A stretch of 64,000 bases of DNA from Bacteroidales bacterium. Lineage in GTDB: Bacteria; Bacteroidota; Bacteroidia; Bacteroidales; GCA-2748055. This document shows positions 58,208 to 64,000 of the stretch, piece by piece. Each line of letters begins with the position of its first letter. Position 1 is the first letter of the stretch. Where the stretch lies: assembly GCA_023138875.1 (NCBI GenBank), contig JAGLOO010000057.1:1-64000 (forward strand), written 5' to 3'. A model generated the notes under the pieces. That model saw only the letters and a list, made by a program, of their open reading frames with translations, made no database searches and was not told where the DNA came from. The position numbers and the translations under genes were made by a program.

Positions 58208-58272
58208 AAGGGATTTGCATACAAGTTATGATTTTCCTTAAAGAAATCATGGACGTTTTCTACCTTTATCCA

Positions 58273-58674
58273 ATGCGCGAATGTCTGAAGAAAGAAGTGA
58301 GCTATAAAACAAGCCGTTCTTCGGGACCGGGCGGACAGCACGTGAACAAAACCGAATCGCGTGTGGAACTGTACTGGAATCTCACAGACTCAGTCTGTTT
58401 GAACGATTTCCAGAAGCATATGATCAGAAAGCGATTGGTCTCAAGGTTAACAGAAAAAAGTGTTCTTATTCTGACATCTGATAAACACCGCTCACAACAT
58501 CAGAATAAGGAGGATGTTACAGAAAGATTCCTGAAATTGATCGCTGCATCGCTGGTGCCTGTCAGGAAGCGTTATCCCACAAAGCCCACCCGTTCAAGCG
58601 TTGAAAAAAGGATTAGTAATAAAAAGATCCGGGGTGATCTCAAACGGTCAAGAAGGAACAGACCTGAGGAATAA
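58273..58674 (+). CDS. arfB: ArfB-like peptidyl-tRNA hydrolase (GGQ release factor domain)
   Basis: A short release-factor-like protein with the catalytic GGQ in SSGPGGQHVNKTESRVEL and a basic C-terminal tail (RSSVEKRISNKKIRGDLKRS) that in ArfB enters the empty mRNA channel of stalled ribosomes. It frees ribosomes stalled on non-stop mRNA. From the ATG at 58273 the protein has 133 residues and the family's usual short lead before GGQ; upstream ATGs at 58228 and 58249 are possible. It converges on the heme-copper operon. Confidence 0.88.
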   Translation: MRECLKKEVSYKTSRSSGPGGQHVNKTESRVELYWNLTDSVCLNDFQKHMIRKRLVSRLTEKSVLILTSDKHRSQHQNKEDVTERFLKLIAASLVPVRKRYPTKPTRSSVEKRISNKKIRGDLKRSRRNRPEE

Positions 58675-58744: not shown

Positions 58745-60373
58745 CTAAGCTGACTCAGGTAACAAGTCTTTGTTCCTGTTCTTCACGGGTTTGAAGATCC
58801 CGATGACTCCGTTCACCCCTACACTCATCACAATATTAATAAAGAAGGCAAGGAATCCGATGAGTAACAGGCCACCGCAGATAAGGGCCAGGATCATATA
58901 AAGGTCATACTCCCCATTGAAATAGAGGGTTCTTCTCAGCATTCCCTTCAATCCGGCCATGCCCATAAAGGCCCCCATACCGATACCCCCCACCAGGTGG
59001 GCCCAGAAATGGAGATTGGCCAGTTTCTGACTGTACAGTTTGGCTCCATTGGTAAGGATCGGCAGCAACAGATAAATGGCAGCATGGAGGGTCATGGTCA
59101 GTCCCACCAGTATTGCCACATGAACGTGTGGTCCTACGATCCACTGGGTGTTGTGAAGGATCCGGTTCAATCCAACATCGGCCTGCATGATCCCTGCGGG
59201 GACGGCCAGAGCAAATCCCAGGAGTCCGCCCAGAAGGAATTTCAATTCGTTGGTCATTTTTAACGGTCGGGCCGCCCATAGAGTAGCCAGGGTGACGAAA
59301 AACGCCAGTCCCTGGGTAATTAATTCAAAGGCGGTCACCATTTCGCCCGATAACACTTTCAGAAATCCCGGCTGGGCCTGATCAGACAGGAGGTGATGCG
59401 ACCATACCGTCCAGGAAACTACAAGCTCCACCAGCAGGGCAGCACGTGCTATGTTCTGCATGAAGAGTCTTTTTCCGGTGATCATGGTGGCCAGGAGGTA
59501 CCACGTTCCGGCTACAAAGATCAGTACCAGGCCATCTGCGATCAGGTCGAGTCCCCACCAGAACCAGTTTTTATACAGCAGGGCGTCAATAGCTGTCTCC
59601 TTCAGGTCGAACCCGAGGATGGCACCTACCATAAATACGAGGATCAGTAGCCCTGTGAAAAGGAGGATCCCTGCATTCAGGGCCATGTCAACCGAACCTC
59701 TGGCTATGGCTGCCACCGGGAGGGATACCAGGTGCTCTTTTTGTTTCACTCTCTTTCTGAACAGGTTCCTGATTCCTGTAGTACCGAGGGCAGAACCCAG
59801 CAATTTGCCTCCAGGCTGTTTCTCCCAGCCCTCCGGGGTGTAGGAGATGGTCTTAAAGACATTGATAACGAAGAAAGCGGAACCTACCATTACCATGGCT
59901 ATTCCCAGTATAAAAATAGCTCCTCCAACCGGATTGAATTGGCTGAAGTCAGCAGGCAGCGGCCAGTACAGGGTATAGAGCGGAGCATAGTGGGAAATAA
60001 ATCCTGCCAGCCAGAAAATAAATGTTCCGGCAGTGATCAGAAAAAAGTTCCAGTGAGCCAGTTTCATGCTGTACAGAGGTTTCTTCATCAGGTAGGGGAC
60101 AAGAAACAGGAATGCCCCAATTACAATAGAGTATGTTGATCCGAAGATACCCACCAGCGGATGGGCTGTCAGGATGGCAAAGAACTGTTCATTGGATATC
60201 ATGGCGATCTGTTCCACCTCGACAATCCGCATGATCATTCCTTCGATCAGCACAATTAGGTAATAGACCAGACCCACCACAACAAACCGCAGGGAGAGTT
60301 TTTGCATGGCAGTCAGGGATTCTGCTTTGAATAATCCCTGTTCGCCTTTCATCAGTGTATTTACAAATGACAT
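58745..60373 (-). CDS. heme-copper oxidase/NO-reductase-like subunit I with altered CuB site
   Basis: A 542-residue integral membrane protein with 12 or more helices. Heme and metal positions are readable: His71 (low-spin heme, TAHPLVG), His326-His327 (SHHLL), and His416 and His418 (GPHVHVA). The helix-VI CuB histidine (HPE in oxidases, HxxxE in cNOR) is replaced: WWGLDLIADG has Asp276 at the histidine position and Asp280 at the cNOR glutamate. No oxidase-type cross-linked tyrosine motif is seen. This fits an unconventional nitric oxide reductase (the proposed gNOR group is the closest I recall) rather than an oxidase. Electron donor and product are untested. Confidence 0.75.
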   Translation of the reverse strand: MSFVNTLMKGEQGLFKAESLTAMQKLSLRFVVVGLVYYLIVLIEGMIMRIVEVEQIAMISNEQFFAILTAHPLVGIFGSTYSIVIGAFLFLVPYLMKKPLYSMKLAHWNFFLITAGTFIFWLAGFISHYAPLYTLYWPLPADFSQFNPVGGAIFILGIAMVMVGSAFFVINVFKTISYTPEGWEKQPGGKLLGSALGTTGIRNLFRKRVKQKEHLVSLPVAAIARGSVDMALNAGILLFTGLLILVFMVGAILGFDLKETAIDALLYKNWFWWGLDLIADGLVLIFVAGTWYLLATMITGKRLFMQNIARAALLVELVVSWTVWSHHLLSDQAQPGFLKVLSGEMVTAFELITQGLAFFVTLATLWAARPLKMTNELKFLLGGLLGFALAVPAGIMQADVGLNRILHNTQWIVGPHVHVAILVGLTMTLHAAIYLLLPILTNGAKLYSQKLANLHFWAHLVGGIGMGAFMGMAGLKGMLRRTLYFNGEYDLYMILALICGGLLLIGFLAFFINIVMSVGVNGVIGIFKPVKNRNKDLLPESA

Positions 60374-60405
60374 AATGACAATTTTTTAAAGGTTAACAAT
60401 CGGGA

Positions 60406-60969
60406 TTATTCTGAGGAGGAATCGGATGCTAGGACCTCAACAGCATTTTCTTCAACCATGGCTATCCCTTTTGGTCCGGAGTATTCCGTTGAGCGAATGG
60501 AATAGGTTCCCGGTTTCAGGAATTGCCAGAGGATATCGTTGCGATGCCCGGGAACAACCTGCATCTGGAAAAGCATGGTGTTATCCTCACGGAATAGTCC
60601 AAATCCGTACGTGAGATCCAGGGATGTTACATCAAATTCAACAATCTCACCCACCTCGACCACCATTTTATCTTCGGGAAGGAAGAACTGGTGATTGGCA
60701 ACTTCGATGGCAAATGATTTGTCCGGAGTAATCTTGTCACGTTTTAAGTCCATCTCCGACCAGGGAATGGTATTGTAGGTGATGATGTGCAATGAAACAC
60801 CTAGCAGCGTCAGGAATCCTACAAATGTGTAAAACAACACAGGATTCACCTTGCTTTTACCCTTTTTGGTTACCCTTAATGCGAACCAGGCCATGACCAG
60901 CATGATTGCGATGGTATAACAGGTATAAGCAATTGTTTGTCCTTTCAGGACGAGGGCGGAATCAACCAT
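60406..60969 (-). CDS. cupredoxin subunit II lacking CuA ligands
   Basis: A 187-residue partner of the subunit above. Two membrane helices (about 11-32 and 44-64) precede a COX2-type cupredoxin domain. At the CuA site the ligands are changed: Tyr121 for His, Ser160 and Ser164 for the two Cys, and Gly168 for His; only Met171 remains. It therefore cannot bind a binuclear CuA centre and probably accepts electrons from quinol, or serves structurally, as CyoA does. Thirty-two nt separate it from subunit I. Confidence 0.8.
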   Translation of the reverse strand: MVDSALVLKGQTIAYTCYTIAIMLVMAWFALRVTKKGKSKVNPVLFYTFVGFLTLLGVSLHIITYNTIPWSEMDLKRDKITPDKSFAIEVANHQFFLPEDKMVVEVGEIVEFDVTSLDLTYGFGLFREDNTMLFQMQVVPGHRNDILWQFLKPGTYSIRSTEYSGPKGIAMVEENAVEVLASDSSSE

Positions 60970-61001
60970 ACGATCTCTTTTTTAGGTTAGACATTTGAAA
61001 C

Positions 61002-61045
61002 AAAATGCTACCCAAAGATAGCATATTATAAGAAAAAAATTCAAT
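61002..61045 (-). promoter_or_regulatory. heme-copper operon promoter with overlapping palindromic operator
   Basis: On the minus strand ATTG (61045-61042), 21 nt, then TATCTTTG (61020-61013) is a full promoter match. ATGCTA (61005-61010) and TAGCAT (61019-61024) form a perfect inverted repeat, extended by flanking A/T bases (61002-61027), that straddles the -7 element. It is a candidate operator for the Rrf2 regulator. Confidence 0.6.
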
Positions 61046-61451
61046 GGTTATTGTCAGATTTTTTTAGCTGGTCTAATGTTGTGTTACTGAGAATATTAAC
61101 TATACTTTTCCTGGTTGTTTCCCAGGTTTCGTGCATGGCACAGGTATGGTTGAAGGGGCATTTATTGAATCCCATGATGCAGGTACCAAGTATATCCAGA
61201 CCCTCAACCGCATCAACAATTTCGGCCAGGGTGATCTGATCGGCGGATCTTTGTAACAGGAATCCCCCATTGCGTCCTTGTACGCTTTTGATGAAACCAC
61301 TCTTTGAAAGACTGGTAAGCAGCTGTCTCAGGTAGGGCCAGGGAATCTTCAGTTTCTTGTGCAATAGTTTTGCTGAGAATTTCCCACCTTCATGGTCCGC
61401 CATAAAGCTAAGGGTTGAAAGGGCATAAGAGGTTGTTTTACTGAAATTCAT
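61041..61451 (-). CDS. Rrf2-family transcriptional regulator (NsrR/IscR-like)
   Basis: A 136-residue winged-helix regulator with the family start (TTSYALSTLSFMA) and wing (VQGRNGGFLL). Three cysteines, Cys91, Cys98 and Cys104 (spacing x6, x5), lie where NsrR and IscR bind a [2Fe-2S] or [4Fe-4S] cluster. It is immediately upstream of, and co-directional with, the heme-copper operon, so it probably controls it in response to NO or redox state. It is likely transcribed separately, because the operon has its own promoter inside the gap. Confidence 0.85.
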   Translation of the reverse strand: MNFSKTTSYALSTLSFMADHEGGKFSAKLLHKKLKIPWPYLRQLLTSLSKSGFIKSVQGRNGGFLLQRSADQITLAEIVDAVEGLDILGTCIMGFNKCPFNHTCAMHETWETTRKSIVNILSNTTLDQLKKSDNNH

Positions 61452-62559: not shown

Positions 62560-63297
62560 TTAACGTGGGCCAAAGGTTTCACCGGTAAACAGTACTTCAA
62601 TTTCACAGGCGTTGAGTGCTCTTTTATAAATCAGGACCTCATCAACAAACCCTTTGTAATAACGGTGGTCACCGTTGTCTCCGTTATAATACATACCTAT
62701 GGTCAACGGGGTTGTACAGTGGATATCTGTTTTTCTGTACCCGGTTTCGATCTGGTTTTCCAGGACGCCGTCTAAGTAAACAGACCAGGTACTACCATCA
62801 ATCATAGCGATTACATGGTGCCAATGATCATCATCAACCCTGGATTTTGAAGTCATTCTTATATATTGACCTGAACCGATCCGTCCGGCCCAAATAACAA
62901 GTCCGTCCTGGGTTCCAAGTGCAAATCCTCCATCAGCGCTGAAATCATATTTCGAAATAATATGGCTGTAACTATCAGTATCCTCTGTCCTGATCCAGCA
63001 CGAAACAGCCACAGCAGAATGAATGGGTTCAATGTTGTTCCCGCAGTGAATATGGTTATCCACACCATTAAAATAATATGCCTGATCGGGATTTCCCATG
63101 CGGTCTGCCGTATGGGTGGCCCCAACAACCGTTCCATGGTTTTCAAAATCCGAGATATCAACTGCATCATCAATGAATGGATAGTGCGCAATGCGATCCC
63201 ATAGCAGGTCAACGTATTGTGCATCAAGATAAACAGGCAGTACCGGAAGTATACCGATAATTACATATGCCAATAGCTTAACCAGCTTTTTCATCAA
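62560..63297 (-). CDS. secreted LamG/concanavalin-like domain protein
   Basis: A 245-residue exported protein (signal peptide, cleavage near LDAQ) consisting of one LamG-type jellyroll: AHYPFIDDAVDISDFENHG, YYFNGVDNHIHC, HHVIAMIDGSTWSVYLDG, GFVDEVLIYKRALN. These domains usually bind carbohydrates or act in adhesion. There is no T9SS C-terminal domain. Its start overlaps the end of the T9SS-type cargo gene by 4 nt, so the two are co-expressed. Confidence 0.82.
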   Translation of the reverse strand: MMKKLVKLLAYVIIGILPVLPVYLDAQYVDLLWDRIAHYPFIDDAVDISDFENHGTVVGATHTADRMGNPDQAYYFNGVDNHIHCGNNIEPIHSAVAVSCWIRTEDTDSYSHIISKYDFSADGGFALGTQDGLVIWAGRIGSGQYIRMTSKSRVDDDHWHHVIAMIDGSTWSVYLDGVLENQIETGYRKTDIHCTTPLTIGMYYNGDNGDHRYYKGFVDEVLIYKRALNACEIEVLFTGETFGPR

Positions 63298-64000
63298 TTT
63301 ATTTTCAGGTAAACAAATCCTTTCACTACTTCAGTCATATCAGAAGGAAACAATAGATACCAGTATGTATCCGGAGGAAGCTTCCTCCCGTTCATATCTG
63401 CCCCATCCCAGTCATTCTCGTAATTGTCGCTTTTAAAAACCTCTCTGCCCGTCCTGTCATATACCATCAGGCAACTCCCCCTGGTCAGACCTCTGATCAC
63501 GAATTCATCATTTGACCCGTCCCCGTTTGGCGTAAACACATTGGGAATGACCAGATCACCAAACTCCAGTGGAGGTTCATCAATTTCTACAATATCAATC
63601 TGGTCAAGCAACAGATTGGCCGAACCGGTGAATTCTTGGGCCAATCCTGCCTCAAGGACCAGGTGCCGGATGGTCAGTTGAGGAAACAATATGAAACTAT
63701 AATTACCCCATGCCTGGTTGGTTATGGCACTTGACTCCGACATCAGTTCACCTTTATCCAATCCGGTTTCAGTGCCAAAGATTTTCAACTTTGCAGGGGA
63801 AGTATAGGCCACAAAACCTTCTTCCCAGCTGAAATGTCCCACGTCATCCCTGGAGGCGAGGTCGATGGTTAACTGGTAGTACTTTCCCGCTTCCAGGGGT
63901 TGTAGAAGGGTGGTAATAACGGTTTCAAATGAGTTCGGATGCTGTTGATCCGGTCCCCGGGTCACAAGTGTCAGGTAAGTGTCACCGTGGGAGGCATGGT
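63294..64000 (-). CDS. T9SS type B (gliding motility-associated) cargo protein, C-terminal part
   Basis: The reading frame is open to the right edge, so this is the end of a larger gene. The visible 230 or so residues include a jellyroll-like part (about 1-130), then the CHU_C/type B sorting domain with VIPNVFTPNGDGSNDEF, VYDRTGREVF, WDGADMNGRKLPPDTYWY and a terminal KGFVYLKI. This directs export and surface attachment through the type IX system. The cargo's main domain lies outside the window. Confidence 0.85.
   Translation of the reverse strand, partial: HASHGDTYLTLVTRGPDQQHPNSFETVITTLLQPLEAGKYYQLTIDLASRDDVGHFSWEEGFVAYTSPAKLKIFGTETGLDKGELMSESSAITNQAWGNYSFILFPQLTIRHLVLEAGLAQEFTGSANLLLDQIDIVEIDEPPLEFGDLVIPNVFTPNGDGSNDEFVIRGLTRGSCLMVYDRTGREVFKSDNYENDWDGADMNGRKLPPDTYWYLLFPSDMTEVVKGFVYLKIN

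Follow-up and report, generated by a model that had tools for sequence, protein, structure and literature searches.

What does a heme-copper enzyme reduce when the first histidine ligand of its CuB site has become an aspartate? Such an enzyme is encoded by a three-gene operon in the window (the whole stretch of 64,000 nucleotides of Bacteroidales DNA analyzed here), which a preliminary description took to be a heme-copper operon under Rrf2 control and probably an unconventional NO reductase resembling the gNOR group. The operon is quite likely to encode a two-subunit, quinol-fed NO reductase of the gNOR type that serves to remove NO. This reading is supported by the sequence tests, all of which point from O2 reduction toward NO reduction.

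Operon Organization

The three open reading frames recognized earlier are all present on the minus strand, where the order of transcription is rrf2, su2, nor.

58745 to 60373, minus strand: nor, gNOR-like subunit I of 542 amino acids (PF00115, E=2e-52)
60406 to 60969, minus strand: su2, gNOR-like subunit II, a membrane-anchored cupredoxin of 187 amino acids (CoxB TIGR02866, E=5e-7)
61041 to 61451, minus strand: rrf2, Rrf2-family regulator (PF02082, E=2e-31)

Both the PF00115 match of nor and its AlphaFold model bear out the assignment of the operon to the heme-copper enzymes. The model (pLDDT 81, pTM 0.86) superposes on cytochrome oxidases with a VIA Z of about 34 over about 460 residues, and its pLDDT is low (about 58 to 72) in parts of residues 251 to 290 and 321 to 350. 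As for membership in the superfamily, the fold matches and five of the six histidines are retained, the sixth being Asp276. Among NCBIfam models, nor matches those of oxidases alone, all far below cut-off.

Two neighboring regions were read by eye. Directly past the 3' end of the operon, on the opposite strand, lies a small open reading frame with a GGQ motif (58228 to 58674, plus strand) that has the look of a class I release-factor-like hydrolase of the ArfB type. At 62560 to 63965 on the minus strand are open reading frames similar to a LamG-like protein and to a gliding-motility/T9SS C-terminal-domain protein (NGDGSNDEFVI).

Active Site of Subunit I

The residues on which the argument turns are encoded as follows, all on the minus strand.

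60161 to 60163, minus strand: His71, a low-spin heme ligand, from alignments
59546 to 59548, minus strand: Asp276, at the position of the first CuB/FeB histidine ligand in helix VI, from alignments
59534 to 59536, minus strand: Asp280, at the position of the cross-linked Tyr and of cNOR Glu211, from alignments
59393 to 59398, minus strand: His326 and His327, the two kept B-site metal ligands, invariant in 89 of 89 sequences
59324 to 59326, minus strand: Glu350 of helix VIII, at the position of cNOR Glu280, invariant in 89 of 89 sequences, from MAFFT and hhalign
59120 to 59128, minus strand: His416 (high-spin heme), Val417, and His418 (the other low-spin heme ligand), from alignments

The seven residues named in the preliminary description (H71, D276, D280, H326, H327, H416, and H418) were all correctly identified, and its WWGLDLIADG motif is present in nor. 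Does an aspartate truly stand at the first metal ligand? Reference sequences of the A-, B-, and C-family (cbb3) oxidases, cNOR, qNOR, and one sNOR-like protein were aligned, and D276 falls in the histidine column of every one of these families. No other histidine aligns at the helix VI ligand position, an outcome that would have counted against the NO reductase reading; D276 itself takes the column. Two independent profile-profile alignments, one with cNOR and one with A-type oxidases, likewise set D276 on the histidine. In one multiple alignment, in which helix VI was gapped, L275 stood opposite the ligand histidine, a placement overruled by the larger family set and the profile alignments.

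D280, one helix turn past D276, lies in the column occupied elsewhere by Tyr, Glu, or Asn, which agrees with its earlier placement at the cNOR glutamate position. The motifs that span the two columns are HLWVE in both cNOR and qNOR, HPAVY in A-type, HPLVY in B-type, and HNAVA in cbb3 oxidases, and HMYIN in the sNOR-like protein. In some MAFFT rows a one-residue gap falls at D280, and in hhalign a gap follows D276 directly, so the match of D280 rests on the ungapped alignment together with a continuous predicted helix at residues 262 to 299. Both aspartates are invariant in the 89 aligned sequences (window plus relatives) and unchanged at loci from another phylum, and they are therefore neither chance nor sequencing error.

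What of the remaining pocket? The HH of all heme-copper references aligns with His326-His327. The helix VII tyrosine position of cbb3 is occupied by S320 and that of helix VI by D280, so that nor has neither of the known oxidase cross-linked tyrosines. MAFFT aligns E350 with the helix VIII glutamate of cNOR and qNOR, as does hhalign for cNOR, the numbering of the cNOR reference (Smel E258) being converted to that of P. aeruginosa (Glu280) by a constant offset of 22. In the oxygen-reductase and sNOR-like references, this column is filled by residues that are hydrophobic or small. As the predicted counterpart of the second catalytic cNOR glutamate, E350 is new beyond the preliminary description. 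Three residues before it, Thr347 aligns with cNOR Ser277. In the reference alignment, no counterpart of cNOR Glu215 is found in nor, which has L284 there, and in helix VIII, the only helix compared for this purpose, the Lys/Thr positions of the K channel are not conserved. cNOR itself depends critically on Glu211 and Glu280 for its activity and for the uptake of protons (PMC3431322).

A separate feature of the family is GPHVH, with an extra Pro415 before the high-spin heme ligand where all other aligned families have G-HxH; this insertion is possibly a family signature.

Subunit II and the Electron Donor

The resemblance of su2 to CoxB is weak, the TIGR02866 match being far below cut-off. In alignment with true CuA proteins, the CuA ligand columns of su2 hold Y121, S160, S164, and G168, and these replacements are invariant in all 88 subunit II sequences. 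Judged from these residues, su2 is expected to have lost the capacity to bind CuA. In this superfamily, loss of the CuA ligands points to quinol as the likely donor. The two subunits travel together, with su2 found alongside nor at 87 of the 89 loci.

Comparison with Known Enzymes

How does this pair compare with gNOR? Murali et al. reportedly described in 2024 that gNOR, too, replaces one CuB histidine, the first, by aspartate. The gNOR enzymes (NorGH) are related to B-family enzymes (PMC8756737, PMC8906906, PMC11388526), have an aspartate as active-site residue and a cupredoxin subunit II (PMC8756737 Table A4), and are described as quinone-oxidizing and non-electrogenic (PMC8906906). They were proposed from phylogenomics without biochemical characterization (PMC11388526). 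The nor-su2 pair shares with them the aspartate at the Tyr/Glu position (D280), the adjacent cupredoxin subunit II, and the lack of CuA. The resemblance to gNOR suggested in the preliminary description fits in every trait that can be checked by published description, and nor-su2 is, to judge by such descriptions, probably a member of this predicted kind. The hosts differ. The gNOR hosts described in the cited papers are the Campylobacterota and Aquificota, with Sulfurimonas, Sulfurovum, and Persephonella (PMC8756737), and Methylomirabilis, which has a two-gene gNOR (PMC6094997), whereas the nor family is found in Bacteroidota and Ignavibacteria.

With cNOR and qNOR, nor has in common the carboxylates at the Glu211 and Glu280 positions (D280 and E350) and Thr347 at the Ser277 position. 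Unlike them, it has an aspartate as first FeB ligand, so that the HxxxE of helix VI is replaced by DxxxD although the helix VIII glutamate is present; it also lacks Glu215, has a cupredoxin subunit II in place of either a cytochrome c subunit or an N-terminal domain fused to subunit I, and is distant in the tree. The sNOR-like protein (L016, 1432 to 2931) comes from another genome of the same phylum, where an HxxxN subunit I is accompanied by a subunit II with intact CuA. It shares with nor the HHLMxDxAQP and HNTQW motifs, a place in the B-like branch, and a cupredoxin subunit II, but it has His and Asn in the D276 and D280 columns and is only 25% identical. The B-family (ba3-type) oxygen reductases share its fold and HH pair and have a similar subunit II scaffold; they differ in having HPLVY with its tyrosine, an intact CuA, and no counterpart of Glu350. 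Against the features of A-, B-, and C-family oxygen reductases generally, nor departs in having D276 for His and, in the two places where a Tyr may stand, D280 and S320.

Relatives and Distribution

A genome scan returned 369 relatives of nor. The best 80 of these are 75 to 90% identical and nearly all from Bacteroidota; they come from Bacteroidales, Marinilabiliales, and Ignavibacteria, apart from one each labeled Acidobacteriota, Chlorobiota, Chloroflexota, and Fidelibacterota. The family occurs in 15 of 247 genomes of the order and in 4 of 396 genomes of another phylum; the single genome sampled from the same genus and the two from the same family lack it. Such patchy spread combined with high identity suggests that the family has moved by horizontal transfer. 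No close relatives were found in plasmid and viral collections. Matches of the Chlorobia type, at about 30% identity, look like cbb3 oxidases and were not counted as members of the family.

In the tree, the nor family forms a single clade inside the branch that holds the A, B, and sNOR-like enzymes (99/99), apart from the C family, cNOR, and qNOR; the tree assigns it no exact sister group. Might it then be a distinct lineage of NO reductases outside gNOR, whose acidic site arose independently in the B-like branch? The family is tight (68 to 90% identity), Bacteroidota and one other phylum yielded no homologs intermediate to it, and both the tree and the hosts described for gNOR (PMC8756737, PMC6094997) would allow it. 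Since each checkable gNOR trait nevertheless fits, namely the aspartate of the active site, the cupredoxin subunit II, and the lack of CuA, we regard an independent origin as quite improbable. A fuller version holds that a separate, non-gNOR lineage converged on an iron held by His326, His327, and Asp276 with Asp280 and Glu350 beside it, was fed by menaquinol, was switched by Rrf2 at its dyad, and spread by horizontal transfer among anaerobic Bacteroidota; this, too, seems unlikely.

The neighbors of the relatives' loci are mostly unrelated genes. Hemerythrin or Crp-type genes lie near a few nor copies, and at L105 (1346 to 2407) and related loci a DUF6448-hemerythrin fusion is found upstream of subunit II. 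Hemerythrins of the RIC/YtfE type belong to the response to nitrosative stress. At L009 (3793 to 4257) and five similar loci of the Ignavibacteria type, a 153-amino-acid protein like a COX1/DUF2871 fragment (HTHIILIG...) is encoded directly upstream of the operon.

Genome Setting

The genome that carries the window (4.8 Mb, 99.6% complete) encodes one cytochrome bd, available for O2, and one NrfA. Searches of it gave no second PF00115 protein beyond nor, no match to heme a synthase (CtaA) or to a NorQ-type chaperone, and no NosZ above cut-off. No heme a is thus expected, and without NosZ or a NorQ-type chaperone nor stands outside any full denitrification set. Among 395 genomes sampled from the phylum, strong NrfA matches (E below 1e-100) were present in 8 of the 12 with a nor-type gene versus 52 of the 383 without (Fisher p=6e-5, kinship ignored). 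NrfA and its co-occurrence with nor, like the cytochrome bd, count in favor of the NO reductase reading; the lack of a full denitrification set, the absence of nor from the sampled close relatives, and the missing Glu215 counterpart count against it.

Could the enzyme instead be a quinol oxidase that reduces O2 at an unusual B site when oxygen is low? Its fold is that of an oxygen reductase and it is the sole PF00115 protein of its genome. Against this, it has no Tyr at either cross-link position, the first CuB histidine is replaced, carboxylates occupy both NOR positions, heme a synthase is missing while cytochrome bd is at hand, and several relatives hold a nor-type gene alongside other, ordinary COX1 proteins. 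Reduction of O2 is therefore very unlikely to be its role. Least credible of all is a role in the turnover of another substrate or in redox or NO sensing, for although its site is unlike that of all characterized enzymes, its distribution is patchy, and its regulator could answer other stresses, catalysis is favored by the full set of heme ligands and by the conservation of the acidic pocket, no signaling domain is present, and the two-subunit gene pair is conserved.

Proposed Mechanism and Significance

The NO reductase reading put forward in the preliminary description is strengthened by D276, D280, S320, E350, and the lack of both CuA and heme a synthase. How might a gNOR-type enzyme of this kind work? 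The low-spin heme would be held by His71 and His418 and the high-spin heme by His416. A non-heme metal would be held by His326, His327, and Asp276, with Asp280 and the helix VIII Glu350 completing an acidic pocket. Sites of two histidines and one carboxylate are typical of non-heme Fe(II), and this set would suit Fe(II) as FeB. The heme/FeB pair may bind two NO and yield N2O, with Asp280 and Glu350 in the roles of cNOR Glu211 and Glu280. Electrons would come from (mena)quinol, subunit II having kept the cupredoxin scaffold without CuA. The NO itself would most likely be released as a side product when NrfA-type enzymes reduce nitrite, or come from neighbors. We infer the iron of the B site, the quinol donor, NO as substrate, and the sensing of NO by Rrf2, whereas the genes, their order, the residues and their conservation, the fold, the lost CuA ligands, the dyad, and the lack of heme a synthase and of any NosZ above cut-off in the genome come directly from the analysis.

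What would such an enzyme mean? The operon has a patchy distribution in Bacteroidota, with a few further phyla, and most likely detoxifies NO to N2O under its own Rrf2 switch. For the predicted gNOR family it offers a target that is compact and, with 369 relatives in one genome scan, widespread. Its carriers would be scored as lacking a NOR by standard annotation, given that only sub-cut-off NCBIfam oxidase matches are obtained. If NO is reduced, (i) Bacteroidota with NrfA and without NosZ are a possible source of N2O, and (ii) the site tests whether, in this superfamily, a metal bound by two His and one carboxylate, here Asp, can stand in for the three-His B site. The invariant Glu350 at the cNOR Glu280 position suggests that different enzymes may have arrived at the same chemistry.

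Regulation

The gene for the regulator adjoins su2 at 49 of 89 loci, some contigs ending too early to tell. The earlier argument that an Rrf2 regulator next door suggests NO is weak when taken by itself, since among solved Rrf2 proteins a BadM/Rrf2 protein and IscR, and not NsrR, come closest. The score is also below the NsrR family cut-off, and members of the Rrf2 family respond to many signals other than NO. C91, C98, and C104, spaced X6/X5, and H107 are invariant in all 49 aligned sequences, and this triad with its histidine would suit an Fe-S cluster, as expected.

Two features lie in the promoter between rrf2 and su2.

61005 to 61024, no strand assigned: perfect inverted repeat ATGCTA-N8-TAGCAT, a putative Rrf2 operator and the one perfect match in the 4.8-Mb genome
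61013 to 61020, minus strand: TATCTTTG, a Bacteroidota-type -7 promoter element inside the dyad, read from the sequence

The element fits TAnnTTTG, the Bacteroidota -7 consensus. The looser form of the dyad, TGnTA-N8-TAnCA, occurs in 9 of 50 rrf2-su2 gaps, where shuffles predict 0.09, and in none of the 35 loci without a detected rrf2. Its place on the promoter, its enrichment in these gaps, and its absence from the other loci make Rrf2 a likely local repressor of su2-nor. The protein, probably with an Fe-S cluster, would sit on the dyad and come off once its cluster is damaged by NO or by a related stress. A search for a wider regulon found none, one-mismatch copies in the genome lying mostly within open reading frames. 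One such copy (L149, 1501), read by eye, lies between two open reading frames, just upstream of one resembling polyphosphate kinase 2. An Rrf2 gene also adjoins cNOR on a Thermus plasmid.
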